A program made the translations under genes and the position numbers. Below are positions 2,866 to 18,662 of a stretch of 64,000 bases of DNA, piece after piece. How positions within the stretch are numbered: position 1 is the first letter of the stretch; every line of letters begins with the position of its first letter. A model generated the notes under the pieces. The model worked only from the letters and a program-made list of their open reading frames with translations, made no database searches and had not been told where the DNA came from. This stretch comes from Deltaproteobacteria bacterium (GTDB taxonomy: Bacteria > Bdellovibrionota > Bdellovibrionia > Bdellovibrionales > Bdellovibrionaceae), in assembly GCA_017302835.1 (NCBI GenBank), contig JAFLCC010000004.1, forward strand, positions 248,001-312,000, written 5' to 3'.

Positions 2866-3960
2866 TTAAAGTTGAAAAATATGAAACTCATAAATTCCTG
2901 TGCCGTCTAAATGATGGGCCTGTTTTTCTTTTTCTTTATTTTGAGTCCAATGAGCCAAGTTTAGACTTTTTGGTTTTCTCATAAAGGAGCGGATCACGAC
3001 CTGAGATCCTGCAGCCGTTTCAGGATGCAGTTTTTGGAGGATCTCGCAAGCTTCAGATTCAGGAAGATAGGAAATTGTATCTGACAAAGAAATAAAATCA
3101 TATGGGTTTCGTGGTAATAATTCTAACAAATTTCCTACATGATATTTTACTTGAGTGCTCGATGCTTTCACTTGCTGAATGATGCGCGAATGAGCCTCCA
3201 AAGGAAGTCCTTCTTGATAACGGATTTCTCCTAAAAAAAGAATTTGCATAAAATAATTTTTTCTTACTAATTGAGTTCGAAAAACTCTTTCAAATTCTTC
3301 CATGATAAATTGATGAGGAGGGCGGTTCTCTGTACGATGATCTTGGGTACCACTAAAGTGTCCCTTATATAAGTATTTGTTAAATACATATTCACTGGCA
3401 AGGACCCTCATAAATGATTTCCAACGTAGATGAGGCCACTTGGCTTCATATATCTGAATTTGTTCACTAAGACTTTGTGCCTTGAAAATCTCTGAAAAGT
3501 CACACTTCAGATAATCTCTAAATATTTTTCCAAGTTTTTGAAAGTGAGACTCCCAACGACCTAAAAGAATAAACCCTTTACTTAACCAAGCTTCTTTTCT
3601 TTCACTCCAAAAACTCTTAGCGCTTTGGCTGATTTTAATCTTTAAAAATAAACTCCATCGGTCATCACCGGCTTGATTACCAGCCTGCAGGCCTCCACGG
3701 TATCCCATAAAATACAGCCATTCATCCTCTGACAACTGCTTCATGGCCTCAATTCTCAACTCACATAAATAAATTTGCTCTTGGCTCATATCAATAATAT
3801 CAAGTACCTCAGGATTTTGCGCGATGAGGGGTAGGCATCTAGCACCCGATCCAGCGATGCTAAAAACTCTGCTAACTTTTTGAGGAAGGAGCGCATGCTC
3901 GATAAAAGTATCCTCATTGGCCAAGGTGTAATTTAAACTTGAAAAATATTCTGCGGACAT
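2866..3960 (-). CDS. BtaA-like DUF3419 protein (S-adenosylmethionine:diacylglycerol 3-amino-3-carboxypropyltransferase family)
   Basis: The 364-residue protein begins MSAEYFSSLNYTLANEDTF and has a Rossmann-like SAM site (VFSIAGSGARCLPLIAQ, about 32-48, then DIIDMSQEQIYLCELRIEA, about 54-72). The C-terminal half contains YDFISLSDTISYLPESEA and ends with VVIRSFMRKP. This arrangement matches DUF3419/BtaA, which transfers the 3-amino-3-carboxypropyl group of SAM to diacylglycerol as the first step of betaine-lipid synthesis. No BtaB methyltransferase is adjacent, so the acceptor and product are uncertain. AGGAG lies nine bases before the ATG. It is the last gene of the twelve-gene operon. Confidence 0.68.
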   Translation of the reverse strand: MSAEYFSSLNYTLANEDTFIEHALLPQKVSRVFSIAGSGARCLPLIAQNPEVLDIIDMSQEQIYLCELRIEAMKQLSEDEWLYFMGYRGGLQAGNQAGDDRWSLFLKIKISQSAKSFWSERKEAWLSKGFILLGRWESHFQKLGKIFRDYLKCDFSEIFKAQSLSEQIQIYEAKWPHLRWKSFMRVLASEYVFNKYLYKGHFSGTQDHRTENRPPHQFIMEEFERVFRTQLVRKNYFMQILFLGEIRYQEGLPLEAHSRIIQQVKASSTQVKYHVGNLLELLPRNPYDFISLSDTISYLPESEACEILQKLHPETAAGSQVVIRSFMRKPKSLNLAHWTQNKEKEKQAHHLDGTGIYEFHIFQL

Positions 3961-3999
3961 AAGTTTTTTCTCCTAATGCTAAAATTGATGAGAGCTTGT

Positions 4000-5082
4000 T
4001 TATAAAAGGCTTGCAAAGTATTGAAATTTTAATCCAATAAATTCTCCACCCGTTTTTTCTTCTACCAGCCCCGTAAAACTTCCATTGCCCCCTTTATATT
4101 CTTGATAAAATAGGGCCATCGACAATTTTTGTTTAAGAGTGATAGCATACTGAAAGCTCCAGAATAAATCTTTATAATAAGTATTGGCATACTCCTGAAG
4201 TTGGAGTTCATGTATACCTTTCGTATAAAGAACAGAAATATAATGCAGACCTTGAGTTACATGGTCCACATCCGAATCCTCTGTGAATAAAATATATTGA
4301 GGGGTCAAAGTGAATTTTCCAATAAAGATGTCAGCCCCAAGACTTGCAAACTCAGAATTTTTATACTTTAAAAAAACATTTTTTTGCTCATTTTCACGAT
4401 AACCCATCTCTATTTTAGGCACCCATTTTTCAAAAGCATAATTAACCCCATAGCCAACCTGATTCTTCTTTAAAGATCGAGCTAAAACAAAAGAATTCTG
4501 GAATCCAAGCAAATCATATTTAAACCTGGCTCCTGGATTTAAACTTTCTTTTTCAAATGGAGTTTGCCATAAAAAAGCCGGATAGGTATCCTCCGCGGCG
4601 TCGAAAAAACCAACCAAATCCAATTGCCATTTCTCTTTAGAAAAACTAAGACTAACCCCCGAAGAGTGGGTTAATTGAAAGGCCAAGGGATCTAAATAGA
4701 GTCTTTCATATTTCCTTGCCGTCCAAATATCTAAGGACGGCAGAACCCAGGAATCACTCCACCGTGTGGCTTGTTTACCTACCTTCGCAAAAAAAATGTC
4801 ACTTGAATACTCCACATAAAGTTCTTGTAAGTAGGCCTTGGATTGGGCGGTCCTCCAGGAGTAATCCTCAGTCGAATTTAAATTAGATTCCCCAAAAAAA
4901 TCTAAGTAGTATTTTAATTTCTCAGTTTGAAAATCTGCCTGAGCCGATAAAATAAGTCGATTCACTCCTATTTTTTGAGAGTTAAAAAAATCATAACTCG
5001 GATTGATGCGAACTCCCCCAAAAAGAACGTCGCTAAAACCAAAAATAATTACTAAAAAAAAAGAAATGACTTTTAATTTCAC
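4000..5082 (-). CDS. Outer-membrane beta-barrel protein of the lipid-export module
   Basis: It starts at GTG, one base after the preceding gene's stop. Residues 1-22 are a signal peptide (VISFFLVIIFGFSDVLFGG). The rest is a series of alternating amphipathic strands with many aromatic residues, ending in a short strand with near-terminal Phe (GLKFQYFASLL), as expected for a barrel. Segment QATRWSDSWVLPSLDIW recalls DUF1302-like proteins often found beside FtsX-type transporters. Together with the LolA-like, permease and ATPase genes upstream it suggests the outer-membrane end of a transport route. Exact function unknown. Confidence 0.6.
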   Translation of the reverse strand: MKLKVISFFLVIIFGFSDVLFGGVRINPSYDFFNSQKIGVNRLILSAQADFQTEKLKYYLDFFGESNLNSTEDYSWRTAQSKAYLQELYVEYSSDIFFAKVGKQATRWSDSWVLPSLDIWTARKYERLYLDPLAFQLTHSSGVSLSFSKEKWQLDLVGFFDAAEDTYPAFLWQTPFEKESLNPGARFKYDLLGFQNSFVLARSLKKNQVGYGVNYAFEKWVPKIEMGYRENEQKNVFLKYKNSEFASLGADIFIGKFTLTPQYILFTEDSDVDHVTQGLHYISVLYTKGIHELQLQEYANTYYKDLFWSFQYAITLKQKLSMALFYQEYKGGNGSFTGLVEEKTGGEFIGLKFQYFASLL

Positions 5083-5083
5083 T

Positions 5084-5797
5084 TTACTTTAAGGACTCCA
5101 TTTTTTTAAGAGAAAAAAAAGCATCGCTGTATTCTTTTTTTTCCATGGACTTAATTCGAATAAAAGAGGTTTTATTTGCTTTATCTTCAATGCGGATAAG
5201 TGAAGGCCTTTGGGCCCCTGCTAGGTTTTTGTAATTTTCAAAATAAGCATTTTTTAAAACGGTCTTTCCATTTAACCCTAAGTACTCAGCACGTAAAGGG
5301 TGTCCTGATTTTTTTTCAACCCACAGACGAATCCACGCATAAGTAAGGTTATCTTTTTTTCCTTCAAGAAGAAGTTGAACCTCGCTCGTATTTTCAGTTT
5401 CAATTTTAGCCACATAATCACCATACCACCGGGTTCTTGAAATATCTCCGTTGGAAACTTGGCCTGATAACTTTTGCGATAAGGATAGTCTTATCGATCT
5501 TTTTAAGTTCGGAACATAGGCCTGAAAATCTCTGTCTAGCATCAACATATTTCTACCCATATCTTTGCTCGGAGCTTTCGTCACAACGATGGTTCGATCT
5601 TGACCCTTGAGAAAAACTTGAAATTCTGAAGTCTCTTCCTCTGCTTGGACTTCAATCATCATCTCATAGGACTCGGCGGGATTTCTAATTTCATCTGCTT
5701 TTTTTATTATATCATTGGCTCGATCAGCCCACACCCTTCCTGAAAAGAATACGAAGAGGGAAGTAAGTGCTAAAAATTTAATTGTTTTTTGATTCAT
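5084..5797 (-). CDS. Periplasmic LolA-like outer-membrane lipoprotein-sorting protein
   Basis: The protein has 237 residues with a signal peptide (FLALTSLFVFFSGRVWA, cleavage after about residue 24). The mature part (DIIKKADEIRNP, MMIEVQA, MLMLDRDFQAYVPNLKRSIRLSLSQKLSG, DYVAKIE, HPLRAEYL) follows the pattern of the 'outer membrane lipoprotein-sorting protein' branch of the LolA/LolB fold. It would carry a lipidated substrate across the periplasm. AAGGAA is seven bases before the ATG. It sits between an FtsX permease and an outer-membrane barrel, which supports the export-chain reading. Confidence 0.72.
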   Translation of the reverse strand: MNQKTIKFLALTSLFVFFSGRVWADRANDIIKKADEIRNPAESYEMMIEVQAEEETSEFQVFLKGQDRTIVVTKAPSKDMGRNMLMLDRDFQAYVPNLKRSIRLSLSQKLSGQVSNGDISRTRWYGDYVAKIETENTSEVQLLLEGKKDNLTYAWIRLWVEKKSGHPLRAEYLGLNGKTVLKNAYFENYKNLAGAQRPSLIRIEDKANKTSFIRIKSMEKKEYSDAFFSLKKMESLK

Positions 5798-5842
5798 AAA
5801 TTTTCCTTAGGTTTTATATTTATAATACATCCTCATGATGAA

Positions 5843-7051
5843 TCATGTAGCTCGTAATAGATCTGGAATTGATTTTTTTAAAATTTTAAAAATAGGCCAA
5901 ATACCGGCTAACCCGGCTGTTACCGCTGGTAACAGCAACGCATTCACAAAATGTATCGGCTGGATTTCTAAAAATATAAGAAAGCTTCTGGTAATTCCAG
6001 GACCTGGAGGCATGGGAATACCTGAAGAGAGAAAGGTTTTCTCAATTAAGAGAGCGATAAGAATTCCAACAACCCCTCCAATAGTTCCTAAAATTAAATT
6101 TTCAATAAATAAAATAGTAAATAATCTTTTACGACTCTCACCATTAGCCCTTAAAGCCCCAATCTCTCCAGATCTTTCAAGTAAGGAAACGGCTATCGTA
6201 TTAAAAATTCCTAAAGCCACAATAATTAAGATAATGGTACGAATAAAACCAAATTGAGCTTCCAGGAAATCAACTGAGTTTTGATAATATGCCTTATCCA
6301 AAATATCAAAAGAGATGGGGTCTAATTTTAGATCTAAGGCTTTAACTTGTTTTTCAACCAGAGGCCAATCTTTTACAGAGGTAATGGACAGGGAAAACTT
6401 TTCGATTCTATCGGTATTCAGGAGTTTTTGTGCTTCAGCCAAGGGAATTCTAAAAAAAATATCATCTATACTTTTTTGTCCCATATGAAAAATTCCGGCC
6501 ACGATAAAATCGGCTCCATTCAATTGTCCCGTTAAGGTTTGGGACAAAACAGTTACCGTATCCCCTACCTTAGCCCCTAGGGAATGAGCCAGCCCCTTGC
6601 CTAAAATAATTTCATTGGCTGATTTAATTTCATTTCCTTCTATAAAATTCATCTGGTTAAAAAATAAACCTTCTCTTCCAGGATGAATTCCCTCTCCCCG
6701 TCCTCCTAAATTGATATCGCCCTTCACTAAAAAAGCATAAAAACTAATTCTTGGAAAGACCTCAAGAATTTGTGGGATTTTCTTTAATTTAATTTCCAGT
6801 TGATCTTGATTTTCAAGCCAAAGTTTCCAGGGTTTTTCGTGAACTTTGTTGTAATACCCTTCCGCATAGACTTCACCATGCCCATAGTAACCATGAATTG
6901 TATTTTCACGGTATTGATTCATAATTCCCGCATTAAATCCCTGGTAAATCAATAAACCAGAGGCTCCTAAGGCTACAGTGAATAAACTAGCCAGTGTACG
7001 TCGCACATTTCTAAAAAGATTTCGCCAAGCTAAAGTTACCAGGATTTTCAT
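5843..7051 (-). CDS. FtsX/LolC-like ABC transporter permease
   Basis: This 402-residue protein has one N-terminal transmembrane helix (TLASLFTVALGASGLLIYQGF), a large periplasmic MacB-PCD-type domain (about 40-270) and three C-terminal helices (FIRTIILIIVALGIFNTIAVSLL, ILFIENLILGTIGGVVGILIALL, ALLLPAVTAGLAGIWPIF). GEIGALRANGESRKRL between helices is the coupling segment of this family. This is the LolC/E-MacB topology, which extracts substrates from the outer leaflet of the inner membrane. It overlaps the ATPase gene by 4 bp. Substrate inferred from context: a lipid or lipoprotein. Confidence 0.82.
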   Translation of the reverse strand: MKILVTLAWRNLFRNVRRTLASLFTVALGASGLLIYQGFNAGIMNQYRENTIHGYYGHGEVYAEGYYNKVHEKPWKLWLENQDQLEIKLKKIPQILEVFPRISFYAFLVKGDINLGGRGEGIHPGREGLFFNQMNFIEGNEIKSANEIILGKGLAHSLGAKVGDTVTVLSQTLTGQLNGADFIVAGIFHMGQKSIDDIFFRIPLAEAQKLLNTDRIEKFSLSITSVKDWPLVEKQVKALDLKLDPISFDILDKAYYQNSVDFLEAQFGFIRTIILIIVALGIFNTIAVSLLERSGEIGALRANGESRKRLFTILFIENLILGTIGGVVGILIALLIEKTFLSSGIPMPPGPGITRSFLIFLEIQPIHFVNALLLPAVTAGLAGIWPIFKILKKSIPDLLRAT

Positions 7052-7737
7052 AACTCTTCTCTTTTCAAGATGGTGCCATCTTTTAAATAAAAAATTTCTC
7101 TAGCGTAGGTCATTAAATGTTGGTCATGTGTTGAAAAAATAAAACTCGTATTTTCTTGGCTTTGTAACTCTTTAAACGCCTTGATTATTTTTTCTGAAGT
7201 CTCTGAGTCTAAATTAGCCGTTGGCTCATCAGCGAGTATCACCTTGGGCTTTTTAGCTAAAGCCCTGGCAATAGCCACCCTCTGGCGTTGCCCTCCAGAT
7301 AACTCTAGGGGTTTTTTATTTAAATGATCTTTAAGCCCTACGAGATCTAAAATTTGTTTGCCTTGTTTGAGAGATTCTTCAGGTGACAGACCCAGCAGGG
7401 GAAGAAAGTAGGTTGTGTTTTCTAAAACAGTCAAGGTGGGAATTAAATAAAATGATTGAAAAATAAATCCAATTTTTTTTAATCTCATTTTTTCTTTTTC
7501 AGATTCACTTTTATGAGTTACCTCTTCATCACAAAAAAATATTTGGCCCTTACTTGGATGATCAATCAATCCAAGAATATTGAGCAATGTGGTTTTACCA
7601 GTTCCACTCGGGCCAACAAAACAAGTAAAGCAGCCATTTTTCAAATCAAAATTAAGTTGATTTAACACCGGTACACTTTGTTGATTCCATTGATAGGCGT
7701 AGTGTAAATTTTTAATCTGATACAAGTGTTTTTCCAT
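7048..7737 (-). CDS. ABC transporter ATPase, LolD/MacB type
   Basis: The 229-residue ATPase carries all canonical motifs: Walker A GPSGTGKTTLLN (about 42-53), Q-loop IFQSFYLIPTLTVLEN, signature LSGGQRQRVAIARAL (about 142-156), Walker B KVILADEPTANLD and the H-loop FIFSTHD. Length and motif spacing fit the LolD subfamily that partners FtsX-like permeases. It energises the permease encoded by the next gene, with which it overlaps by 4 bp. Confidence 0.9.
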   Translation of the reverse strand: MEKHLYQIKNLHYAYQWNQQSVPVLNQLNFDLKNGCFTCFVGPSGTGKTTLLNILGLIDHPSKGQIFFCDEEVTHKSESEKEKMRLKKIGFIFQSFYLIPTLTVLENTTYFLPLLGLSPEESLKQGKQILDLVGLKDHLNKKPLELSGGQRQRVAIARALAKKPKVILADEPTANLDSETSEKIIKAFKELQSQENTSFIFSTHDQHLMTYAREIFYLKDGTILKREEL

Positions 7738-7774
7738 CGTCTCAACCTATATTTCTTTTTAAACAGTGTAAAGT

Positions 7775-9910
7775 TTAATTGTTTTTCCTTTTAGACATCG
7801 CTATTTCCCTTACTAGCGAAATTTCCTTATCAGAAATTCTTCCCATATGACCTTGAATATGGGCCAACTTGACTCCATGTTTTTGTGATAATTTATAAAT
7901 CTCTTTCACCTTGGTCCATTCAATATCTCGACCTAAAGTGAAACTTTCATACCGCTCTTCCATGGCTAGAACGGCCGTCTCTGCTAGGCAGGCATAGACC
8001 ATATTTTTTGGCAATCCAATATCACAAGTCATATTGTATTTTCCAGGAAGAATCAGTTCTCCTGACTCGATAATAAGTACATCGGGTCGTCTTTGTGCCT
8101 CTTCTTTCGAAAAATCCAAGGGCCTTGAGCAATCACAAACAACACATCCTGGTTTAAGTTCCATCACATCCACAATTTTCTGGTCAAAGGCCGAAGTGGC
8201 TGTCACCAGAACATCAGCAAAGGAAGCAAAATCATTAGCACTCGTGGTAATCACGACCTCACAACGAGGATTCAATTTCTTTAACTCAGTTTTTAACTCA
8301 AAAAGTCTTTCCATTCTTGGAGAGACTAAGATCAACTTGTCAAAAACTAAGCTCAATAGTTTGGCTGAAACCTTTCCAATGGACCCGGTAGCACCGATCA
8401 CCATGGCTGTCCCCTGCACCAAACCTGATTGCGGATTGTGTTTGAGCAATTTCATTTTCAGAACCACCTCGTACAATGCCCACAAGGTGGCAGAGGCGCT
8501 TAAGCTATTTCCTGTCGTCACAGGAAGTGGAGAGTTTTTATTGATAGTCACTCCTGAATCACCGACGACTTTAGTGTAGGCTCCTAAGCCTATAATTTTG
8601 GCACCTCGTTCAGCGGCATCGACACAACATTGATGAATTTGATTGTAAACAAACTCAGGATCACTATTTTTCAAAACTTTTGGTGTAGAAAAAAGTGCAT
8701 AAATAATCCCATTAACCTCTCGACCAGTGGATTGTGAAACAACTTGCGTGATCCTCCCATAGGAAATAGGTGGAAGTTTAGCCACTTGACGATCAAAAGT
8801 GTCGTTCAATTGACTTGGCAAAGACCGAATAAGAGATCCTACAACAGGAAGTCTTTGAAAGTCCCGATGGGACAAAGCATGCACGACAAAAGCGAAATCT
8901 GGGGCTTTTTGTTTTAGAACTTTATTTTTGAATCCATGATATTCTTTGTTGATTCTTGCTTGTAAAGACATATTTCTTTTTAATGAATATTTTCGAACTT
9001 CATGCATCACCTCATTCGGCGTTACTAAAAGTTGCTGCCACTCTTCAAAATTTAAACTTGAATTTCTTTCATTTAACAAACGAAAGACCGCTTCTAATAA
9101 ACTATAGTCCGTATATTTTCCTAAATCAGACGTTTCAGGAATCAAATGATGAACCTTGGTAAAGCCATAGGTTGAAATCACTTTTTCCAATTGAGGATGC
9201 TTTGACCAAGTGATGAGTTCCTTGCCTTTAAAAATATCGGTTTCTCGATGATAGAATGAAATGATTGGTAAATCGCCGACAACGTACTGACAATCTTTAA
9301 TTTGGTTAACCAAAAGATTTTTCCCTTTTTCTTGCCATGAACTCTCTAAAGAAACGGATTGACCCTTCATCGATTTTATCGTTGCAAGATGAAGAGACGA
9401 TTGAGCCATCGTCATTAAACCAAAAAATGGTTTAATGACCAAAGGCATACCAGTTAAAGCATACAAATCGCCAAAATAAACTCGACTCCCCTCTAGATGA
9501 CGAAGGTATTCCTCAATGTCTGGAGCTATCAATGTCAACGGAAAATAAAAACCCGCTTGAGGGTTAATCGCTTTATTCTTAATTAATTCCATTAAGGTTT
9601 GTAGGGTTTGAATTTCTCTGATACCCGTTCCATCACACAAGGGGACTGAACAAGGAGTATCCATAATTTCAAAATACTGACGATGGATAAAACTTTTATT
9701 TCTAAGACACAGTGAAGGGGGAAGCGATGTTAAGGCAAAGGCATCGACTTCTGGTCCCAAATTTTTAATTAAGGTTTTCAACGCCGAAACTGAAAAATTA
9801 GCACCAAATCGCTGAACTTCAAATTCAGCTGAATGAAATTTGAAATGATGGCTATAGTCCCAGTGAGAATAGCCAAAACTAATTTCAGCGATCCGAAATG
9901 AATTTTTCAT
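7775..9910 (-). CDS. Long-chain acyl-ACP reductase-like protein with an unidentified N-terminal half
   Basis: I place the start at the second Met (position 9910, protein MKNSFRIAEISF) because GGAGAGG lies just upstream; the longer frame from 9934 lacks a site. The product has 711 residues. The C-terminal part, about 330-711, resembles cyanobacterial acyl-ACP reductase (AAR): IIGLGAYTKVVGDSG, PLPVTTGNSLSASA, dinucleotide-binding VIGATGSIGKVSA, and near the end NMVYACLAETAVLAMEERY, aligning with the AAR segment that holds the acyl-binding Cys. AAR reduces acyl-ACP to fatty aldehyde. The first 330 residues are unfamiliar to me and roughly double the usual AAR length. No aldehyde-deformylating oxygenase is nearby, so an aldehyde or alcohol intermediate is more likely than an alkane. 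Confidence 0.75.
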   Translation of the reverse strand: MKNSFRIAEISFGYSHWDYSHHFKFHSAEFEVQRFGANFSVSALKTLIKNLGPEVDAFALTSLPPSLCLRNKSFIHRQYFEIMDTPCSVPLCDGTGIREIQTLQTLMELIKNKAINPQAGFYFPLTLIAPDIEEYLRHLEGSRVYFGDLYALTGMPLVIKPFFGLMTMAQSSLHLATIKSMKGQSVSLESSWQEKGKNLLVNQIKDCQYVVGDLPIISFYHRETDIFKGKELITWSKHPQLEKVISTYGFTKVHHLIPETSDLGKYTDYSLLEAVFRLLNERNSSLNFEEWQQLLVTPNEVMHEVRKYSLKRNMSLQARINKEYHGFKNKVLKQKAPDFAFVVHALSHRDFQRLPVVGSLIRSLPSQLNDTFDRQVAKLPPISYGRITQVVSQSTGREVNGIIYALFSTPKVLKNSDPEFVYNQIHQCCVDAAERGAKIIGLGAYTKVVGDSGVTINKNSPLPVTTGNSLSASATLWALYEVVLKMKLLKHNPQSGLVQGTAMVIGATGSIGKVSAKLLSLVFDKLILVSPRMERLFELKTELKKLNPRCEVVITTSANDFASFADVLVTATSAFDQKIVDVMELKPGCVVCDCSRPLDFSKEEAQRRPDVLIIESGELILPGKYNMTCDIGLPKNMVYACLAETAVLAMEERYESFTLGRDIEWTKVKEIYKLSQKHGVKLAHIQGHMGRISDKEISLVREIAMSKRKNN

Positions 9911-10946
9911 AACCTCTCCAAAATGATTGTTCATATTCTGAAAATTCAGGACACCAGTTTAAACCTAACATTTTTTCGGTGTCCTCCGTATTAAAAGAGG
10001 GCAGATCCAAAGCATATCTTAATTGTTCTTTAGGAAACTCTAACAGGCTATGCGCCAAACTCGCTGTCATCTCTGTTGGTAAATCTTTTACCAACTTAAA
10101 ATCAAAATTAGAAATTCCTAAATGGGACATTACCGATGTATAAAACTTCCTGATTTCTACACCCTGTCGCGGAGCTAAATAATAACTTTGATAGTCTCGA
10201 GAAATTGAATGTCCATCTTGAAGAGAGAGTAAAGATTTAAATAATATATCAAGAACTCCTTGAGCCGCTATATCTACTGGAACAAAAGGAAGCCGTACCT
10301 TTTCATTTCCTGGAAGAAAATAAACTCCTGACCATTTACCAAGAAAGGTTTTCAGTTTTCGAAAACCCTTTACGGCTTCATAGGGCCCATCAACTCTATC
10401 AATTTTACCAGTTTTAGAATGACCCACCAAAATTCCCAAACGTAAATTTAATTTGGAAAAATTCGCCGAACTCCAATTCAGAATTTGGGTTTCTGTTAAG
10501 GCTTTGCCTTCTGAGTAAGCATCCGGAAAATGTTCTTTGAGATTTAAATCATAGGCAGAAACAGTACCAAGACAATTTGAAACAGCAGCGATAGAGCTAG
10601 CATTTACAAACAAAGGAACCTGTAATTCCTGTGCCAATTTTAATGCCATATTCGTTCCAAAAACATTATTCACAATGACCTCTTGATAAGAGGCATTCAA
10701 GTCGTACAAACTGGCCAAATGAAGAAAGACATCGAATTTAGTTTTCTTAAGCTCCGTGAGATTTAATCCTGCATTAAAAAGCGTTAAATTCCCTTTCCAA
10801 GAAGAATGATAATTCATTAAAGCGGGGGGATTACGTGAGAGAACATGAACTTCAACATCTGGATTCAACTGTAATAAAGCAAGGACTTCCTTTCCGAGAA
10901 AGCCTGTACCTCCAGTCATAAAAATTCGGATGGGTTTACTTTTCAT
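9885..10946 (-). CDS. Extended SDR / NAD(P)-dependent epimerase-reductase
   Basis: The 353-residue protein opens with the nucleotide-binding motif MTGGTGFLGKEVL (about 10-22) and has VLSRNP after beta-2, FLHLASLYD, NVFGTNMAL, and the catalytic YSEGK (Tyr-x-x-x-Lys, about 145-149) preceded by NASSIAAVS. This is the extended SDR pattern shared by OleD, thioester-reductase domains and sugar epimerases. Lying between a lipid kinase and an acyl-ACP-reductase-like gene, reduction of a lipid ketone, or of a fatty acyl or aldehyde group, is plausible. Its 3' end overlaps the start of the downstream gene by 26 bp. Confidence 0.72.
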   Translation of the reverse strand: MKSKPIRIFMTGGTGFLGKEVLALLQLNPDVEVHVLSRNPPALMNYHSSWKGNLTLFNAGLNLTELKKTKFDVFLHLASLYDLNASYQEVIVNNVFGTNMALKLAQELQVPLFVNASSIAAVSNCLGTVSAYDLNLKEHFPDAYSEGKALTETQILNWSSANFSKLNLRLGILVGHSKTGKIDRVDGPYEAVKGFRKLKTFLGKWSGVYFLPGNEKVRLPFVPVDIAAQGVLDILFKSLLSLQDGHSISRDYQSYYLAPRQGVEIRKFYTSVMSHLGISNFDFKLVKDLPTEMTASLAHSLLEFPKEQLRYALDLPSFNTEDTEKMLGLNWCPEFSEYEQSFWRGYEKFISDR

Positions 10947-10950
10947 GAAG

Positions 10951-11943
10951 CTACACCAGCACCGTTAGTTTTTGATGGAGACATTTAAATTTCACTTCTT
11001 CAGCATTACGGAAAAGAATCTCACCATCACCAAAAAAAGTGAGCAATCTTTTATTATTTAAAGTTCTCACCGTAAAGCTTTTTTTCTCCTTCGTATTGAC
11101 AACGGAACTTTCTCTTAATTTTCCTCTTAAAACTTTTAAGACGGACAGTATTTGTGTTGCCATATTATGGGATTCAATCATTGTTAAATTCATTTCGCCA
11201 TCGGAATTATTAGTAAAGGGGGCAATAAGATATTTTCTACCTAGATAAGGCTGATTATTAATTAACAAAAAGGGCGATTGAGTTCTTTTTTTACTTCCAT
11301 CATCAAATTCAATTTCTAAGTTCCAATTTTTTTGATCCCACTTTAAAAGAGATTGAGCCAAGAGCGCTGAGTACACTTCTGATCCTAATTTTTTTACCGC
11401 TCTGTGAGTTATCTTAGATAAACCTCTGAAAAATGGATTGACCTCTGAATTGATGGATTGCAGTTGCAAGAAAGATCTGAGTTGATTCGCTTTATCTGAA
11501 GTCATAGCAGGAATTCCGAAACCACCATTAGTAAGCATATACTTTTTTACGCCCTTGGATTCCACCTCAATGACATCTATCTTTCTTTCCTTCCCTTCAA
11601 GTATCACGCGAGCCGCAATATTTACCTTCTCGCTAATACCTAGTTCATGACTTAAATCATTTGCTGTTCCTGAACTAATCAAACTGATAGGGGGAATTTC
11701 ACCTACATGATGAAGTGACATGATCATTTGCAAGGTCTCATTAATCGTGCCATCACCACCGCAAATAAGAAAGGCATCTGTATTATTTTGAATTTCATTT
11801 TTAACAAAACCCAAAGACTCCTCTCGAGTTTCAGCGATCAAAAAATGCAATCGACATCGAAATAATGCCTGAGATATTTTTTCTTGCAAAAGCCCGATAT
11901 CCACGGCACCTGCTTTGGGGTTTATGACTACGGAGACGAGCAT
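10951..11943 (-). CDS. Diacylglycerol kinase family (DgkB/YegS-like) lipid kinase
   Basis: The 330-residue protein starts VSVVINPKAGAVD and carries the nucleotide-binding GGDGTINETL (about 82-91) and SSGTANDLSHELGI (about 107-120), both hallmarks of the DAGK catalytic domain. The C-terminal half forms the family's beta-rich substrate lobe (PFLLINNQPYLGRKYLIAPF, TFFGDGEILFR). It should phosphorylate a lipid hydroxyl using ATP; diacylglycerol, sphingosine-like bases and other lipids are all used in this family. GGAG precedes the ATG, which overlaps the dikinase gene by 16 bp. Confidence 0.82.
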   Translation of the reverse strand: MLVSVVINPKAGAVDIGLLQEKISQALFRCRLHFLIAETREESLGFVKNEIQNNTDAFLICGGDGTINETLQMIMSLHHVGEIPPISLISSGTANDLSHELGISEKVNIAARVILEGKERKIDVIEVESKGVKKYMLTNGGFGIPAMTSDKANQLRSFLQLQSINSEVNPFFRGLSKITHRAVKKLGSEVYSALLAQSLLKWDQKNWNLEIEFDDGSKKRTQSPFLLINNQPYLGRKYLIAPFTNNSDGEMNLTMIESHNMATQILSVLKVLRGKLRESSVVNTKEKKSFTVRTLNNKRLLTFFGDGEILFRNAEEVKFKCLHQKLTVLV

Positions 11944-14639
11944 ATAGATTCTCCCTCACTTAAAATTTTAATAGTACCAGCTTTACCATCTAACTTGACT
12001 TTCATTCCAGATTTTAATTTTTTTGTCAAACCAGGTATAGAAACAATTGTAGGTATTCCCATTTCTCTAGCTACAATAGCTGAATGAGATAACAGACTTC
12101 CTCTTTCCACCAAAAGTCCCTTAATACTCGGATAAAGAGGCACCCAACCGGGATCAGTTCGGTCAGCAACTAATATTTCACCATTGAGTTCTAAATTATC
12201 TTGAGGTGAAGAAATATATTTGACGACACCTTCAATAATTCCCGGACAACAAGGCATTCCTTTTAAATCACAATCTTCTCCGTCGTAACTGGGTGCTTCT
12301 ACTTCCTTGACAAATTGATTATGCCAATAAACAGCACCGCGCGTGAGGATGCGAACATCAGGAGTAGTTAACTCAAAACTTTTATAAGACTTTTTTCTTA
12401 ACTCAATGAATGACTGTAAATCATAACTTGTTAAGGTTCCATTATAAATACCAAATATCTCTTCAATGTTGAGCCAAAAAATATCCCTGTCTTTTTCAAT
12501 AATTCCGAGCTGAGCTAAATCTTGTCCCACATATTGAAATATATTTCTCGCAATTCCATAGACTCTGGTTCTTGCAAATCGGGTATTTTCTCTATTCTTT
12601 ACGGCTTTTCTCGCATGCTTTAAAACCCAAAAATAAAAAACTTTTTGAAACCCCTTTAATGAGGTCTCGACCTTCGCTTCCGCCGTTTTTCTTAAAGCTG
12701 ATTCTTCTTCAATCTGTATAAGTTCCAAGGAACTCGATTTCAGATAATTTTTAATGCAAACAAATAAATAAGTAGGATCTGTGTTTAAATCTATTTCTTC
12801 TAATTTCATCTCGCTCATACATCGAAAACCAAAACGATCCAGATAGCTCATTACCTCTGCATAAAATTCCTGATAAGTACTCTGCTTAAGAAACTCTAAT
12901 AACTCAGAAGACTCATATTTAAGAAAATCATTTCTTAAACTTGGATTATTGAAAACAATCATCGTCAATTTTTTAAGTGCCTTCATGGGCTCGGCACTTT
13001 CTAGGCCACCTTCACCAGACAGCAAGTCGTTCTGAATCGTTGAATCGAACTGAGAGAGCCACTTTAAGGTTAACTTTCTAAGTAGTCCAAAGTGGACCAT
13101 ACACAAAAAATCATTTACAATGGGAGCTTTCCATCGACCCAACATATTCATTTCAAGCTCGGAATAAACTTGAATGAGCTGATCTCCTCGCAGTTTCTTC
13201 AGAGGCAAAGATCTATAATAGTCATAGTCCTTATGAAAGGTTTTCAAGAAATCAGTCACCATGGATTGAATGGTAAGATGATATTTAAAAAAACTAAGAC
13301 CGGTAACCAACTTCCGTACCTTGCCTTCCAAGGTATTCCAAGAGGGATGAGGCTTTATTCTTTCAGTGATCTCATCTGTCAGTTTCTCAGAAACTCCCAT
13401 CATGGTTTCCATAAACTCACGATTTTGTTTAAATCCTGGCAATATGCCTACAAGTTTGTACCAATTGAATAAATTATAATAAACTCTTCCATTAATATTT
13501 CCCAACATGTAACTAAGATAGCTATCCATTTCCTTAATTACCTGACGAGGAACATTAAGTACCTCACAAAATTGGACGTAAACATTTTTGTAATTTCGCA
13601 ATGCAAATGAAAAACTCAAGGGCAAAGTTAATCCCCCATAGGATTCAACGATATTTGAATTGTCCCATAAGTTAGGATACCCAACTAAATCTTGTTCTAA
13701 GTGGGTGACGGGTCTAGTTTGCAATATGTATAATTTTTCACCTTGAATGGCCCATTCAATATCTTGTGGACGTTGAAAATAACCCTCTATGAATTTTCCC
13801 AATTTCCATATTTCTAGGAGCTGTTTCTCAGATAATGCGGGCCTGAGCCATTCTCTCTCTTCCATATCTATTAATACTGTTTCGCCCTGTTTTCCCTTCT
13901 TCATCGCCGTTTTTTTCTCAACAATATCCCGTTTTACCATTAAACCTGTTGAGTTCTCTAGCCAAAAAGTATCTGCTGGTAAGGCACCAGAAACAAGACC
14001 TTCACCAACTCCACGAACGGCGCTAATGACGTAATGATCTAACTTCTGCGAAACTGGGTCACAGGTAAACAAAACACCTGATTCATCAGGGTCTATCATT
14101 TTCTGCAGAACAACTGAAACTTGAATTTTATTAACAGAAATATTATTTTTTCTTCGATAAACAAGCCCTCTTTCTGTAAAACCTGAAGCCCAACATTTTC
14201 TCATGGCAAAAATAATTTCTTCAAAATCTGATAAATATAGAAAACTAGATAATTGCCCAGCAAATGAATGAGAAACCCCATCTTCATCCGCTGCAGAACT
14301 GCGAACTGAGAACATTAAAGTATCTTCGCTTGAAAAATGCCTCAAAGCTTTTTTCAACTCTTGAACCAAAAAATCTGGCGTGGGAGGATCTAAAAAAAGC
14401 TTAGAAAACTCATTTTCAGCTTGAGACGCAGATATTTTATTCCTATTTAATTCATCGATAATTTGATTCATTTTTTCAGTTAAAGAATAATAATCAACAT
14501 AGCTTTGAAAATATCTTTTACCAAATACAACCCAATCAGGTACAGGCAAACCCTGCTCTGTCATTAGATACAAATTAAATCCCTTACCACCGGATTCTTT
14601 TTTTGCATAAGCATAAGTAGAATTTTTTGTAACTAACAT
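11928..14639 (-). CDS. PEP-synthase/rifampicin-phosphotransferase-like dikinase
   Basis: This is a 903-residue protein. Residues about 1-310 form the PPDK_N ATP-grasp domain (GGKGFNLYLMTE, MFSVRSSAADEDGVSHSFAG, SGVLFTCDP, DIEWAIQGEKLYILQTRPV). The C-terminal 100 residues are the swivelling phosphohistidine domain (VADRTDPGWVPLYPSIKGLL, SLLSHSAIVAREMGIPTIVS) with its active-site His. The pyruvate/PEP-binding TIM barrel of true PEP synthase is missing. Instead a 450-residue middle region lies between the two domains, the architecture of rifampicin phosphotransferases. Reaction likely: ATP-driven transfer of the beta-phosphate to a small molecule or lipid alcohol. GGAG is seven bases before the ATG. 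Confidence 0.75.
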   Translation of the reverse strand: MLVTKNSTYAYAKKESGGKGFNLYLMTEQGLPVPDWVVFGKRYFQSYVDYYSLTEKMNQIIDELNRNKISASQAENEFSKLFLDPPTPDFLVQELKKALRHFSSEDTLMFSVRSSAADEDGVSHSFAGQLSSFLYLSDFEEIIFAMRKCWASGFTERGLVYRRKNNISVNKIQVSVVLQKMIDPDESGVLFTCDPVSQKLDHYVISAVRGVGEGLVSGALPADTFWLENSTGLMVKRDIVEKKTAMKKGKQGETVLIDMEEREWLRPALSEKQLLEIWKLGKFIEGYFQRPQDIEWAIQGEKLYILQTRPVTHLEQDLVGYPNLWDNSNIVESYGGLTLPLSFSFALRNYKNVYVQFCEVLNVPRQVIKEMDSYLSYMLGNINGRVYYNLFNWYKLVGILPGFKQNREFMETMMGVSEKLTDEITERIKPHPSWNTLEGKVRKLVTGLSFFKYHLTIQSMVTDFLKTFHKDYDYYRSLPLKKLRGDQLIQVYSELEMNMLGRWKAPIVNDFLCMVHFGLLRKLTLKWLSQFDSTIQNDLLSGEGGLESAEPMKALKKLTMIVFNNPSLRNDFLKYESSELLEFLKQSTYQEFYAEVMSYLDRFGFRCMSEMKLEEIDLNTDPTYLFVCIKNYLKSSSLELIQIEEESALRKTAEAKVETSLKGFQKVFYFWVLKHARKAVKNRENTRFARTRVYGIARNIFQYVGQDLAQLGIIEKDRDIFWLNIEEIFGIYNGTLTSYDLQSFIELRKKSYKSFELTTPDVRILTRGAVYWHNQFVKEVEAPSYDGEDCDLKGMPCCPGIIEGVVKYISSPQDNLELNGEILVADRTDPGWVPLYPSIKGLLVERGSLLSHSAIVAREMGIPTIVSIPGLTKKLKSGMKVKLDGKAGTIKILSEGESICSSP

Positions 14640-14642
14640 ATA

Positions 14643-15515
14643 CTAACTCCAGTAACTCGCTGTTAACAGCATAAAATGACCCACTAAAAATAGCCCCGTT
14701 GAATTTCTAAATAACTTCGCTGAAAAAATGGACCCAGAAAAGACATACATAAGACTTACCAAAAAATAGATAAGGCTTAAAATAAGAAAATAATTAATAT
14801 TTCTTATTTGTAAGTAGTTTAAAAAAATCAATCCTAGCAACACCTGAGACATTGCCAAGGCCCAGGCCCAGCGGATTCCAAAAATTCCCGAGTAACTAGC
14901 TACCATGGGCCGTTCCTCAACCTGAGAAAATATCTTTCTCGCAAACTCAAACAAATTAAAGTAAAACCACGGGGTCAGAAAGAAAAGAACCACATCAAGA
15001 CTCACTTGATTCAAATCAATTCTGGAAAACATATAAGCTCCTGAAAAACCTGAAAAACAGCTCACAAATGTATGAACTATTCCGTAGGTAGTTAAATGTG
15101 GCCTTAGCAAAGAGCCTATAAAAAATTCTTCGAACATTAATAGGGAATAAAAAACGGCAACGAGATGAACAAAAAAATAAGACCTGCCTAGCGTTCCTGA
15201 AACAAGAAGTTCGAAGGCAATTAAAACTAACAAAGCCATTTTAGTCTGATCGATGGTCAACGCCCCCCGAGCCAGCGGACGGGTTGGATTGAATTTAGTA
15301 TCAAAAGCATAGTCTTTGATTTCGTCAAAGAGTCGTAATCGAAAGAAAAAAGAAAGTTGAATTATGAAAGAAATTAAAAACTTTTCAAGGGAAAAAGAGT
15401 TTCCGCTTTTATCCAGTAGATAAAACCCCAAACCTAAATTAAAAAATAAAATCATTGGAAGGTAACTTCCTGGATTAAACCTTTCTTTAATCAAACAAAT
15501 AAGACCTTTAATCAA
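14643..15515 (-). CDS. UbiA-family membrane prenyltransferase
   Basis: Translation begins at a TTG codon, supported by GAGGTG five to six bases upstream; no ATG fits. The 290-residue product has seven to nine hydrophobic segments. FDEIKDYAFDTKFNPTRPLA (about 64-83) is the first aspartate-rich prenyl-diphosphate-binding motif of UbiA proteins (DxxxDxxxD). The second aspartate-rich motif is not obvious; FARKIFSQVEE near 190 lies where it is expected but lacks the Asp pair. The enzyme would join a prenyl group to a lipid or aromatic acceptor in the inner membrane. Its neighbours argue against ubiquinone synthesis. It overlaps the upstream gene by 8 bp. Confidence 0.7.
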   Translation of the reverse strand: MIKGLICLIKERFNPGSYLPMILFFNLGLGFYLLDKSGNSFSLEKFLISFIIQLSFFFRLRLFDEIKDYAFDTKFNPTRPLARGALTIDQTKMALLVLIAFELLVSGTLGRSYFFVHLVAVFYSLLMFEEFFIGSLLRPHLTTYGIVHTFVSCFSGFSGAYMFSRIDLNQVSLDVVLFFLTPWFYFNLFEFARKIFSQVEERPMVASYSGIFGIRWAWALAMSQVLLGLIFLNYLQIRNINYFLILSLIYFLVSLMYVFSGSIFSAKLFRNSTGLFLVGHFMLLTASYWS

Positions 15516-17925
15516 TTATCACCTCTGGAGAATCAGTAATCATTTTGCGTAAAACGGCATACTCAACTTTGGAATGGTGGCGAGGATCCATGGGAATCGC
15601 CGTTACGAACAATATTTCATCAGCAGGAATGTCATTCTTTTTAAAAACTCTTTGGATTTCATTTCGAGCCTTTGAAAAATCAAATGTTTTGGAATCAAAT
15701 TCTTGTTTTAACTCAATCGCTACTACTGTCTGTGTCTCAGCATTGAGTTCCAAACCTAAATAAGCACACCGGTAGGTAAAGTCTAATCTTTTTAGCAAGA
15801 CTTCCGCCTGAACAGGAAAATGATATCTTCCCTTACGTTGAATGGCATTATTAGTTCGTCCTACAATCCAAAGATTTTTTTTTGTATCCAAATAGCCTAA
15901 ATCTCCCGTACGATGCCAAACTTTATTTTTATCATCTAAAATTTTTGCTGATTTAAATGCCTCTTTATTATTATAGTATTCACGGCAAACATGATCGCCT
16001 GTACATATAAATTCCCCAACCAGCAAGCTGGGATCTTTGACTTCAGAATATTTGATTTCAATATCACTCCAAGCACTTGCACCAAGAACGATGGGACCAT
16101 CTACAATCTTAATAAATTTGTATTCAAGATCTTCACTGATGTGTCCTACATTGACTCCCAGTTCAACGATCTCTGGATCAGATGCCACTTCCTCTTTCAG
16201 CATCTCATGACCTTCGATATGGGCCATAGGTTCGGCCTCTGTGGATCCGTACAAAATCCAAAGTTCCGATTGGGGAGCTACATCATAGAAAGCTCTGACG
16301 TCGTCTTTACTTATAGGTGCTCCTCCCGTAACAACTCTCCGTAAATGGCTTAGAACTATTTTTTGTTCTTTGCAAAACCGAGAAAGACCCACAAGCATCG
16401 ATGGCGCCAAGGTCGTACAAGACAGCTTTTCACCCATAATTTGAGTTGCCAAAATTGCGGAATCCCTATTCGAAGGTTGAGCTAAATTAATAGCTGGTAA
16501 GATAGTAGTTACGCCTGCAGCTAAAGAGTTGAGTGAAAAGATCGGAAATGCAGGCATATCTTTATCAAAAATAGTAAAAGGAATGACATGTGTTAAAGCA
16601 TGATGTTGCGCTACTAAAAAGCGGTGGGATCTATTGGCACCTTTGGGTTTTCCAGTGCTCCCCGTTGTGAAGGTAATTAGAGCTGGGAATTCACTATCAA
16701 CGGCAGTGATTTCAGAAAAGGAATGATTTAACAACTCATCAAATCGATGAGTCATTTTTTCTCCAGGACCATAAAGAACTCGAATTGGCATGGAGCTGAA
16801 TTCAGGAACTTGATCCACTAATTGAAAGGCCAGTTCAAAACTGATCATGGCCTTAGGCTGAACACAATCTGCACTTGCGCCCAAATGATGACTTCGAGCC
16901 CAAGAATCTAAAAACACAGCAATAGCTCCTATCCTTTGGGTGGCAAACATCGCCACATACATCTCGAGACTCATCGGTAGAAAAATGATGACCCGATCCC
17001 CTTTTTCTATGCCAATGGATTTTAATCCTTGGGCAAATTTAGAAATCATTTCTTCGAATTTTTTAAAAGAAATTTCTTGATGAGGAAGACTGTCCGAGAC
17101 AGCACCGGTCCATTTTTTTAGATCCTCTGTATTTACCCATTTCAAAGCAATTCCGTTTGGATTTTCATGTACATGTTTTTCTATAAAGCCTATGACATTG
17201 TTATTTATAGTCGATTCTGGAAAGTACCCTATCTTATCGATCATCGCATTTATATCCTCTGCAATTAGCTGGGCATCTGTCCACAAAGCACCATGCCCTG
17301 ATTGCGATAACCATCGAGGCTTTAAATAACGAAATCTTTCAACTTCTATTTTTTGAATGTCCAGGTTCATGGCTCTATCCTGAAGTCCCATGTAATAATA
17401 TCCAAGAACGTCTGATTTAAGATCTAGAGGCTTTTCTTGTTGAAGTTTTTTTCCTTCGATGGCTTGGAACCAAGTATTTGGATCCGACAAGAGATTTAGT
17501 TTATGGACATAATGTTTTTTGCCGTTTGAGGCATCAGACAATTCATCTGGGTAAATCATGTTTCTAAAATAATCTTCATAGTTTTTTTTGTGATTCATTT
17601 TGACAAGAATGTCGCTGACCACAGGCAAGGACAATAATCCCTTTGCGACGTTACTTAAAGCGGACTCATTTCTTAAATAAGGATTAATTAAAAATACTCT
17701 TTCTACTTTACTTTCAATCATATTCATTAAACTCATTAAACGATAACAACCCCAAGAATGAGCCACAACCATGACTCGACTTGAAGAATTTTGAATATCT
17801 AAAACCCATTTGTCGGAATAAGCATCTACGGCAATGAAATCAGCATTGGGAGATAAAAATGATTTTAATAAGTCACCATCAGAAGGATGTCCTGGATTTC
17901 CGTGAAGAAAATAAACGCGCATCAT
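15508..17925 (-). CDS. Alpha/beta hydrolase fused to an OleC-like acyl-adenylating enzyme
   Basis: The 805-residue fusion has an N-terminal serine hydrolase (1-245): VYFLHGNPGHPSD oxyanion segment, AHSWG with Ser57 as nucleophile, and SGHGALW with the probable catalytic His. Residues about 250-805 are an ANL-family ligase: ITFTTGSTGKPKGANRSH (P-loop), WILYGSTEAEPMA, HRTGDLGY, and HHSKVEYAVLRK with the C-terminal lysine. The stretch MPAFPIFSLNSLAAGVTTIL resembles OleC beta-lactone synthetases and related proteins. OleBC fusions are known in some Actinobacteria, but OleB uses an Asp nucleophile, whereas this hydrolase has Ser. It probably activates a fatty acid and transfers or hydrolyses the product. 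AAAGGG is eight bases before the ATG. Confidence 0.75.
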   Translation of the reverse strand: MMRVYFLHGNPGHPSDGDLLKSFLSPNADFIAVDAYSDKWVLDIQNSSSRVMVVAHSWGCYRLMSLMNMIESKVERVFLINPYLRNESALSNVAKGLLSLPVVSDILVKMNHKKNYEDYFRNMIYPDELSDASNGKKHYVHKLNLLSDPNTWFQAIEGKKLQQEKPLDLKSDVLGYYYMGLQDRAMNLDIQKIEVERFRYLKPRWLSQSGHGALWTDAQLIAEDINAMIDKIGYFPESTINNNVIGFIEKHVHENPNGIALKWVNTEDLKKWTGAVSDSLPHQEISFKKFEEMISKFAQGLKSIGIEKGDRVIIFLPMSLEMYVAMFATQRIGAIAVFLDSWARSHHLGASADCVQPKAMISFELAFQLVDQVPEFSSMPIRVLYGPGEKMTHRFDELLNHSFSEITAVDSEFPALITFTTGSTGKPKGANRSHRFLVAQHHALTHVIPFTIFDKDMPAFPIFSLNSLAAGVTTILPAINLAQPSNRDSAILATQIMGEKLSCTTLAPSMLVGLSRFCKEQKIVLSHLRRVVTGGAPISKDDVRAFYDVAPQSELWILYGSTEAEPMAHIEGHEMLKEEVASDPEIVELGVNVGHISEDLEYKFIKIVDGPIVLGASAWSDIEIKYSEVKDPSLLVGEFICTGDHVCREYYNNKEAFKSAKILDDKNKVWHRTGDLGYLDTKKNLWIVGRTNNAIQRKGRYHFPVQAEVLLKRLDFTYRCAYLGLELNAETQTVVAIELKQEFDSKTFDFSKARNEIQRVFKKNDIPADEILFVTAIPMDPRHHSKVEYAVLRKMITDSPEVIID

Positions 17926-18662
17926 ATTTTGATCCCTTTCACATTTAATTTTTGAAAATCTTTAATTTTTGGATTCTTGAAATAGATTGGGCTGTCCGAT
18001 TTATTCTTGATAATCAAAACTTTATTTTCATTTTTATCAATTTCAGAAAGCAATTCCGAACACACGACAGCCTCTTGAATGGAGGCATTTAAAATAGCTT
18101 CCAAATAACTCTGATAATTGTGAGAAAAAGGATAGACCTTCAAAATATCACCATCATCAATTTTAGAAGTCATTCGATGAATTGAAAATCCAAAATTATC
18201 TCCTTCTAAATGGGCCCAAAAATCACACATCAGTCCCCTCTGTTTCGGCAATAGACCATGATGGATGTTCACACAACCCCACTTTGGAGCTTGCAATAGA
18301 TTTCTTTTAAAAATTTCCCTAGTTCGAGCATTTACAATTAAATCAATCTCTTCGTCTTTAATAATTTGTAATACCTCTGGCAAATTAATAGTTGAAAAAC
18401 TCCAAACTTTTTTTCCTAAGCTCAAATACTTATTTTTACGAACGGTATCTGATCTTGAAAAATAATTTTTTATCAATTGAGCACCCAATCTTGTACCCGC
18501 ACCAGATAGAATTAAAACAAGGGCTTTTAATAAAATAGAAAAACTTTTATTTTTAATAATAATAAGACCAACAATATGAGTATCCTCAGCCATTTTTAGA
18601 ACAAAACGGTTGTAATTGAAAGGGACAAAGGTCAGATCAGAAGTGACTAATAAAGTTTTCAT
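17922..18662 (-). CDS. Formyltransferase-family protein (first gene of the lipid operon)
   Basis: The 246-residue protein carries the catalytic triad context of folate-dependent formyltransferases: NIHHGLLPKQRG (Asn and His) and SIHRMTSKIDDGDIL (Asp), preceded by IDLIVNARTREI. It lacks the C-terminal OB domain of methionyl-tRNA formyltransferase and is shorter, so it is more like the sugar-amine N-formyltransferases. The substrate may be an amino group on the lipid built by this operon. It overlaps the next gene by 4 bp. The first 90 residues are divergent and contain a hydrophobic stretch (ILLKALVLILSGAG). Confidence 0.68.
   Translation of the reverse strand: MKTLLVTSDLTFVPFNYNRFVLKMAEDTHIVGLIIIKNKSFSILLKALVLILSGAGTRLGAQLIKNYFSRSDTVRKNKYLSLGKKVWSFSTINLPEVLQIIKDEEIDLIVNARTREIFKRNLLQAPKWGCVNIHHGLLPKQRGLMCDFWAHLEGDNFGFSIHRMTSKIDDGDILKVYPFSHNYQSYLEAILNASIQEAVVCSELLSEIDKNENKVLIIKNKSDSPIYFKNPKIKDFQKLNVKGIKI

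Follow-up and report, generated by a model that had tools for sequence, protein, structure and literature searches.

The twelve-gene operon at positions 2866–18662 of the window (the 64,000-nucleotide stretch of DNA analysed here) on balance appears to encode a modular pathway, so far undescribed, by which Bdellovibrionota make and export an amino lipid or a lipid-like metabolite. This reading builds on the genes observed, their intact catalytic residues, the conservation of the cluster and an exchange between two gene cassettes; the reactions, and the product with them, are predicted from protein families. Approximately one-third of the sampled Bdellovibrionota, including a genome matching B. 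bacteriovorus HD100, have this large conserved biosynthetic cluster, for which no product has been described.

Organization and conservation of the gene cluster

The operon consists of twelve consecutive ORFs (g01 to g12, numbered from the high-coordinate end), all on the minus strand, and neighbouring ORFs overlap by 4–50 bp or are separated by 1–45 bp. This layout agrees with the original prediction, which had placed a tightly spaced, single-strand set of twelve genes at the same coordinates with all gaps below 50 bases, and nearly all of the family labels given there were matched by Pfam/NCBIfam scans. Just downstream of the operon lie two overlapping genes on the plus strand (2173–2744), encoding a DUF4258 protein and a DUF2283 plus HTH_17 protein, which look like a small toxin-antitoxin-type pair. 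At the other end, a 973-aa protein of AsmA-like appearance, with no family above cut-off, is encoded divergently from the operon (18788–21709, plus strand), and a single ORF (21712–23349, minus strand) combines an RluA-type pseudouridine synthase domain (aa 12–173) with an rRNA-methyltransferase domain (aa 332–506).

A g07 profile scan of 84,980 species genomes yielded 68 loci, a set that may lack divergent copies because the scan rests on two peptide patterns. The titles of these loci all refer to Bdellovibrionota, except for a few loosely labelled metagenome bins, and the named relatives of the window's own genome (3.63 Mb) also belong to this phylum. Among the 34 long loci (≥20 kb), no fewer than seven of the families are found in 31, and the biosynthetic core is complete in 22. 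The families are thus clustered more than by chance, and synteny is wider than the few pairs to which it would have been limited had the prediction been wrong. The exact single-strand order was found only in the window and in one locus from the window's genus (L016); outside this genus, the same genes are rearranged, often into two divergent operons. Recurring 'genes' without any family also emerged from the neighbourhood clustering, and these were set aside as mostly antisense shadows of core genes.

In 290 genomes of the phylum, g07 is present in 90 (in one of them as the N-terminal domain only), and the families NF004881 (g04) and PF11899 (g12) are each present in 100. The gene co-occurs with g04 in 83 of the 90 genomes and with g12 in 87, with Fisher values of 1e-46 and below that are not corrected for phylogeny. 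Even within a genus some genomes have the genes and others do not, so that this co-occurrence cannot be put down to common descent alone. The fixed twelve-gene pathway that had been proposed did not hold; instead, the cluster comprises a backbone module and an exchangeable cassette.

Backbone module

The common backbone consists of a lipid kinase, an SDR, an acyl-ACP-reductase-like protein and a DUF3419/BtaA-like transferase. The kinase, g05 (10951–11943, minus strand, as are all of g01 to g12), is of the DAGK/YegS type (DAGK_cat, 6e-20; YegS_C, 6e-11) and would put a phosphate on a lipid hydroxyl, while g06 (9885–10946) is an extended, FAR/NAD_binding_4-like SDR (PF07993, 1e-20; PRK07201, 9e-35).

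The reductase-like region of g07 (7775–9934) occupies aa ~347–714 (PigE, 2e-49; AAR, 7e-15). Foldseek matched it to the cyanobacterial AAR structures 6jzq–6jzz with a target TM of about 0.78–0.79, the Rossmann motif GATGSIG is invariant, and Cys649, which is invariant in 40 orthologues, aligns with the catalytic Cys294 of 6jzz. The protein shares fold, Rossmann motif and position of the catalytic cysteine with AAR but differs in being fused behind a 346-aa domain and in having no aldehyde-deformylating oxygenase partner. It is predicted to form a fatty aldehyde from an acyl thioester via Cys649, in a reaction that may be NAD(P)H-dependent as in AAR, and g06 would carry the reduction further. 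Residues 1–346 belong to no known family and gave no relative by sequence or structure search. Stand-alone homologues of this N-terminal domain, about 320 aa in length, are encoded away from the cluster (L099:9862–10839, L100:9558–10541 and L101:8976–9914).

The last gene, g12 (2866–3960), encodes a DUF3419/BtaA-like aminocarboxypropyl-transferase family protein (PF11899, 5e-54, covering residues 4–363 of 364). In several genomes it lies only 9–21 bp from a GNAT gene, for example in the order PPDK-GNAT-DUF3419 in G213. BtaA transfers the 3-amino-3-carboxypropyl group of SAM, and by this family analogy g12 would move the same group onto a lipid or its precursor, giving a free amine and a carboxylate.

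Cassette genes

The first gene, g01 (17922–18662; 246 aa), encodes a 10-formyl-THF-type N-formyltransferase (Pfam Formyl_trans_N, 1.8e-13), the capping enzyme of what we refer to as the F cassette. Its Asn-His-Asp catalytic triad (N132, H134 and D169) is invariant in 15 orthologues, and its PDB relatives are the N-formyltransferases ArnA, VioF, PseJ and LgrA. The 805-aa g02 consists of two domains. The N-terminal one (aa 1–238; 17212–17925) is an alpha/beta serine hydrolase with a weak Pfam match and an intact Ser57-Asp183-His211 triad that is conserved in 33 aligned rows. The C-terminal one (15508–17211) is an AMP-forming acyl ligase of the PRK09274/OleC-like type (PF00501, 1e-43; OleC-like AMP-binding, 1e-60; NF006754, 2e-103, below its cut-off).

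The match of g03 (14643–15515) to the UbiA family of membrane transferases is weak (9e-6). The first motif, DExKDxxxD, is invariant (45 of 45), and the second reads ExxRK instead of DxxxD in 46 of 47 sequences; as the canonical second Asp motif is missing, the substrate may not be a diphosphate. Ligase and UbiA form one polypeptide in seven other loci, supporting their consecutive action: the ligase would activate a carboxylate, and the membrane-bound UbiA protein, often adjacent or fused, would join the pieces.

The remaining cassette gene, g04 (11928–14639), encodes a PEP-synthase/rifampicin-phosphotransferase/PigC-like dikinase (NF004881, 1131 bits; cut-off 883) with a PPDK_N (ATP-grasp) domain at residues 16–316 and a PEP-utilizers (phosphohistidine) domain at residues 819–888; the best PDB match is 5fbs. 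PEP-utilizers_C, the PEP-binding TIM barrel of true PEP synthase, was not matched, and the protein stops after the mobile domain, sharing the absence of the PEP barrel with rifampicin phosphotransferase and PigC. The dikinase would provide phosphate activation, either by placing a second phosphate on an alkyl phosphate or by a PigC-like activation of a carbonyl.

Two interchangeable cassettes

Two gene sets accompany the backbone. The F cassette comprises the formyltransferase, serine hydrolase, AMP-ligase, UbiA and PEP-synthase-like dikinase, and the N cassette comprises a GNAT acyltransferase together with a ligase, a UbiA protein and a dikinase that belong to it; in some loci without a formyltransferase, the GNAT-family protein adjoins g04. 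Both capping families are N-transferases. Genome-wide, 54 of the 99 core genomes encode the formyltransferase and 39 the GNAT protein, six encode neither, and none encodes both. In the genus of the HD100-type genome, GNAT is encoded in two genomes and the formyltransferase in the rest, with the surrounding gene order otherwise kept.

The F and N gene sets behave as alternative cassettes swapped against a common backbone, as judged from sequence trees. The g07 tree requires nine changes of the F/N label, of which at least seven are forced by well-supported branches, and the g12 tree likewise requires nine, at least four of them forced. By contrast, the label changes only once on each of the UbiA and ligase trees and twice on the dikinase tree; these single-copy trees come from quick searches, and the contrast between them is large. 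Such a distribution indicates that the cassettes move as units. The free amine would be N-formylated by g01 in F-type genomes or N-acylated by GNAT in N-type genomes, an acceptor suggested by gene adjacency. The formylation originally envisaged is therefore retained for genomes with a formyltransferase and is no constant step of the pathway, since approximately 40% of the genomes have GNAT instead and have lost the hydrolase.

The hydrolase itself follows the formyltransferase: it is present in all 30 scorable F-type loci, either as a domain of the ligase protein or encoded separately, between the formyltransferase and ligase genes, and in none of the 18 N-type loci. This association, together with the intact triad, would also fit a scheme in which a formyl group protects the amine during the ligase, UbiA and dikinase steps and is afterwards taken off by the serine hydrolase, leaving a free amine on the F-type product and an N-acylated N-type product. 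Transient acyl masking of amines has precedents in antibiotic biosynthesis. However, the hydrolase has no deformylase family match and could equally serve as a transacylase or thioesterase for its fused ligase, and we regard the masking scheme as rather unlikely. Under the reading that we prefer, the formyl or acyl cap stays on the product. Because formyl and acyl cassettes have been exchanged repeatedly in nature, there are matched pairs of closely related F-type and N-type genomes, such as G198 and G210, or the HD100-type genome and G122 or G146, whose products should differ by a single predicted group, so that the product should be findable by mass comparison.

Many N-type clusters contain cytochrome P450 genes (L053, L059, L072, L091, L095, L115 and L118), which suggests further diversification of the product, and a metallo-beta-lactamase-fold protein is also encoded in L053, L059 and L072. 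A replacement of formyltransferase plus UbiA by P450 plus GNAT was considered and ruled out, because UbiA is fused to the ligase in these clusters.

Comparison with known systems

The cluster was not found described in the open literature that we searched, and within that scope the pathway is new as a whole, although its enzyme families are not. As the original prediction had it, no named pathway combines these families: betaine lipid, Ole, prodiginine, elb ether lipid and Lol systems were each considered and each fails at least one defining feature.

The prodigiosin and tambjamine systems (PigE/TamH and PigC/TamQ) share with the cluster a thioester-reductase domain and a protein of the PEP-synthase-like ligase family. 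PigE reduces a thioester (PMC8341465), its reductase domain is the closest relative of g07, and g04 matches PigC (345 bits, 7e-103) and RedH (324 bits, 1e-97). Patchy distribution and cassette swapping also resemble specialised metabolism, and the product might accordingly be imagined as a diffusible specialised metabolite or pigment made by similar logic rather than as a membrane lipid. We consider this rather unlikely. The cluster has no transaminase or pyrrole-forming genes; in particular, no class III transaminase is fused to g07, which carries an extra N-terminal domain instead, and the full-length PigE alignment covers the reductase part only. The dikinase scores far higher with NF004881 than with PigC or RedH, whose cut-offs (1300 and 1350) it does not reach, and a DAGK-type kinase, UbiA and a LolA-like carrier suit a lipid better. 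A lipid-like product is the most economical reading of these genes, and the lipid synthesis first proposed is kept in this respect, while its scheme has been recast as modular and cassette-swapping.

The Myxococcus elb ether-lipid operon (PMC9131029) likewise encodes an acyl reductase, an acyl-CoA ligase and an NAD epimerase/dehydratase function next to one another. It differs from the present cluster, which is without an ACP or AGPAT-like acyltransferase domain, and DUF3419, UbiA, a dikinase and a capping enzyme are all missing from its described gene list (PMC9131029).

A betaine-lipid pathway of the DGTS type, extended by accessory genes, would account for the core membership of g12, given the DUF3419/BtaA-family protein and the expected use of SAM as a 3-amino-3-carboxypropyl donor in both systems, but is very unlikely. 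No BtaB-type methyltransferase was found among the twelve proteins or the families common to at least six loci; in its place, the cluster has the formyltransferase or GNAT, AMP-ligase, UbiA and dikinase, and the amine seems to receive a formyl or acyl cap.

Weakest of all, to the point of being hardly credible, is an OleABCD-type beta-lactone/olefin pathway: an OleC-like AMP-ligase, an alpha/beta hydrolase and an SDR with weak OleD similarity are shared, but no OleA thiolase is present among the twelve proteins (the two ACP_syn_III_C proteins of the window's genome, FabH or OleA, are on other contigs), the hydrolase is of the serine type, optional and missing from N-type clusters, and the ligase (203–208 bits against OleC equivalog cut-offs of 850–900) is under every OleC cut-off. 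The OleC-like ligase with hydrolase that had been proposed for g02 is thus correct in its two domains, whereas an identity as OleBC is not, because of the serine nucleophile and the absence of OleA from the cluster.

Transport genes

Four genes encode export-type families. g08 (7048–7737) is a LolD-like ABC ATPase (TIGR02211, 3.5e-62; 209.8 bits against a cut-off of 307.75), g09 (5843–7051) is an FtsX/LolCE-like permease (FtsX, 3e-19; MacB_PCD, 4e-10; lolCE, 5e-25, with 88.3 bits below the cut-off of 362.45) and g10 (5084–5797) is a LolA-like periplasmic carrier (PF17131, 1.1e-29). The 360-aa g11 (4000–5082) has no Pfam match, and its AlphaFold2 model (pLDDT 80) is an outer-membrane beta-barrel with an OprD/AlgE/MOMP-like fold, these being the closest of the porins matched by Foldseek (E = 1e-11 to 1e-9). 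LolD-like ATPase, LolCE-like permease and LolA-like periplasmic protein are common to the LolCDE-LolA export system, from which the operon differs in its single FtsX permease, porin-type barrel, position among biosynthetic genes and scores below the LolD and LolCE equivalog cut-offs.

Among the 34 long loci, g08 and g09 are near the cluster in 10, g10 in 10 and g11 in 4, and most long loci of the sister lineage are without transport genes. Export to the outer membrane had been predicted as part of the pathway. The families present fit this role, but they are lineage-specific neighbours rather than a constant part, and the LolDE/LolA/barrel genes are a lineage-specific addition, probably serving export. 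In the window's lineage, the LolDE-like ABC pair, LolA-like carrier and barrel would carry the product to the outer membrane.

Predicted product

More specifically, and more tentatively, the product could belong to a new class of envelope amino lipid with a homoserine-type head group that is N-formylated or N-acylated depending on the lineage. The UbiA/dikinase/AMP-ligase cassette that builds it would have been replaced as a whole on seven or more occasions, beside a conserved backbone derived from a fatty aldehyde; this cassette is also found on an alphaproteobacterial plasmid that has no fatty-aldehyde module. An envelope lipid, if true, would bear on how these predators construct membranes and surfaces that are out of the ordinary. 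Undescribed enzymology is further suggested by the N-terminal domain of g07, the variant UbiA motif and the dikinase.

Related clusters in other genomes

The plasmid of Roseinatronobacter sp. S2 (L128; NZ_CP121116.1, 123887–136713) carries a compact operon of overlapping genes in the order UbiA-dikinase-DUF3419-439-aa membrane protein-GNAT-ligase. Except for the 439-aa protein, which has no family match, the encoded proteins match the Bdellovibrionota profiles with E-values of about 1e-30 to 1e-198, and this cluster contains neither a reductase nor an SDR or DAGK kinase. A phytol/dolichol-kinase-like nature of the 439-aa protein was read by eye, is supported by no library and was not used as evidence. 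The composition of the plasmid cluster ties DUF3419 to the chemistry of the cassette and shows that the supply of fatty aldehyde forms a module that can be separated from it. The acyl-ACP reduction originally proposed is consistent with the fold and cysteine of g07 and is dispensable in this related cluster. Also outside the phylum, Deinobacterium chartae has both the NF004881 and the PF11899 family. Most genomes of one Bdellovibrionota lineage (f20) are also without a detectable full reductase and have kept DUF3419, ligase, UbiA, dikinase and GNAT.

The genome matching B. bacteriovorus HD100 (G114) contains all twelve genes and an acyl-CoA ligase gene beside g01. A Nudix gene at 3,099,816 fits Bd3179 (PMC4629899), and by gene counting g05, at 3,078,750, would correspond to Bd3162, which is predicted to be a kinase and is missing from Bdellovibrio sp. 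NC01 (PMC7137782). If this assignment is right, the natural absence in NC01 indicates that the cluster is unnecessary for predation as such. Between g04 and g12 of the same genome lies a gene for a small secreted protein (L107:5248–5580) without Pfam support; by gene counting it may be Bd3155, which is reported to be among the proteins most induced upon prey attachment (PMC12546842).

Distant reductase matches in G001, G004 and G005 were initially candidates for divergent copies of the cluster and turned out to represent a different two-gene unit. In G001 (L029:9565–14707), an 858-aa transaminase-plus-thioester-reductase protein (PigE/TamH-like) overlaps a PigC-like dikinase, beside a UbiE-like methyltransferase. 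Similar units are present in L027 and L028 of G005 and G004, respectively, and these congeners are without the twelve-gene cluster; the product of their two-gene unit may be an alkylamine.
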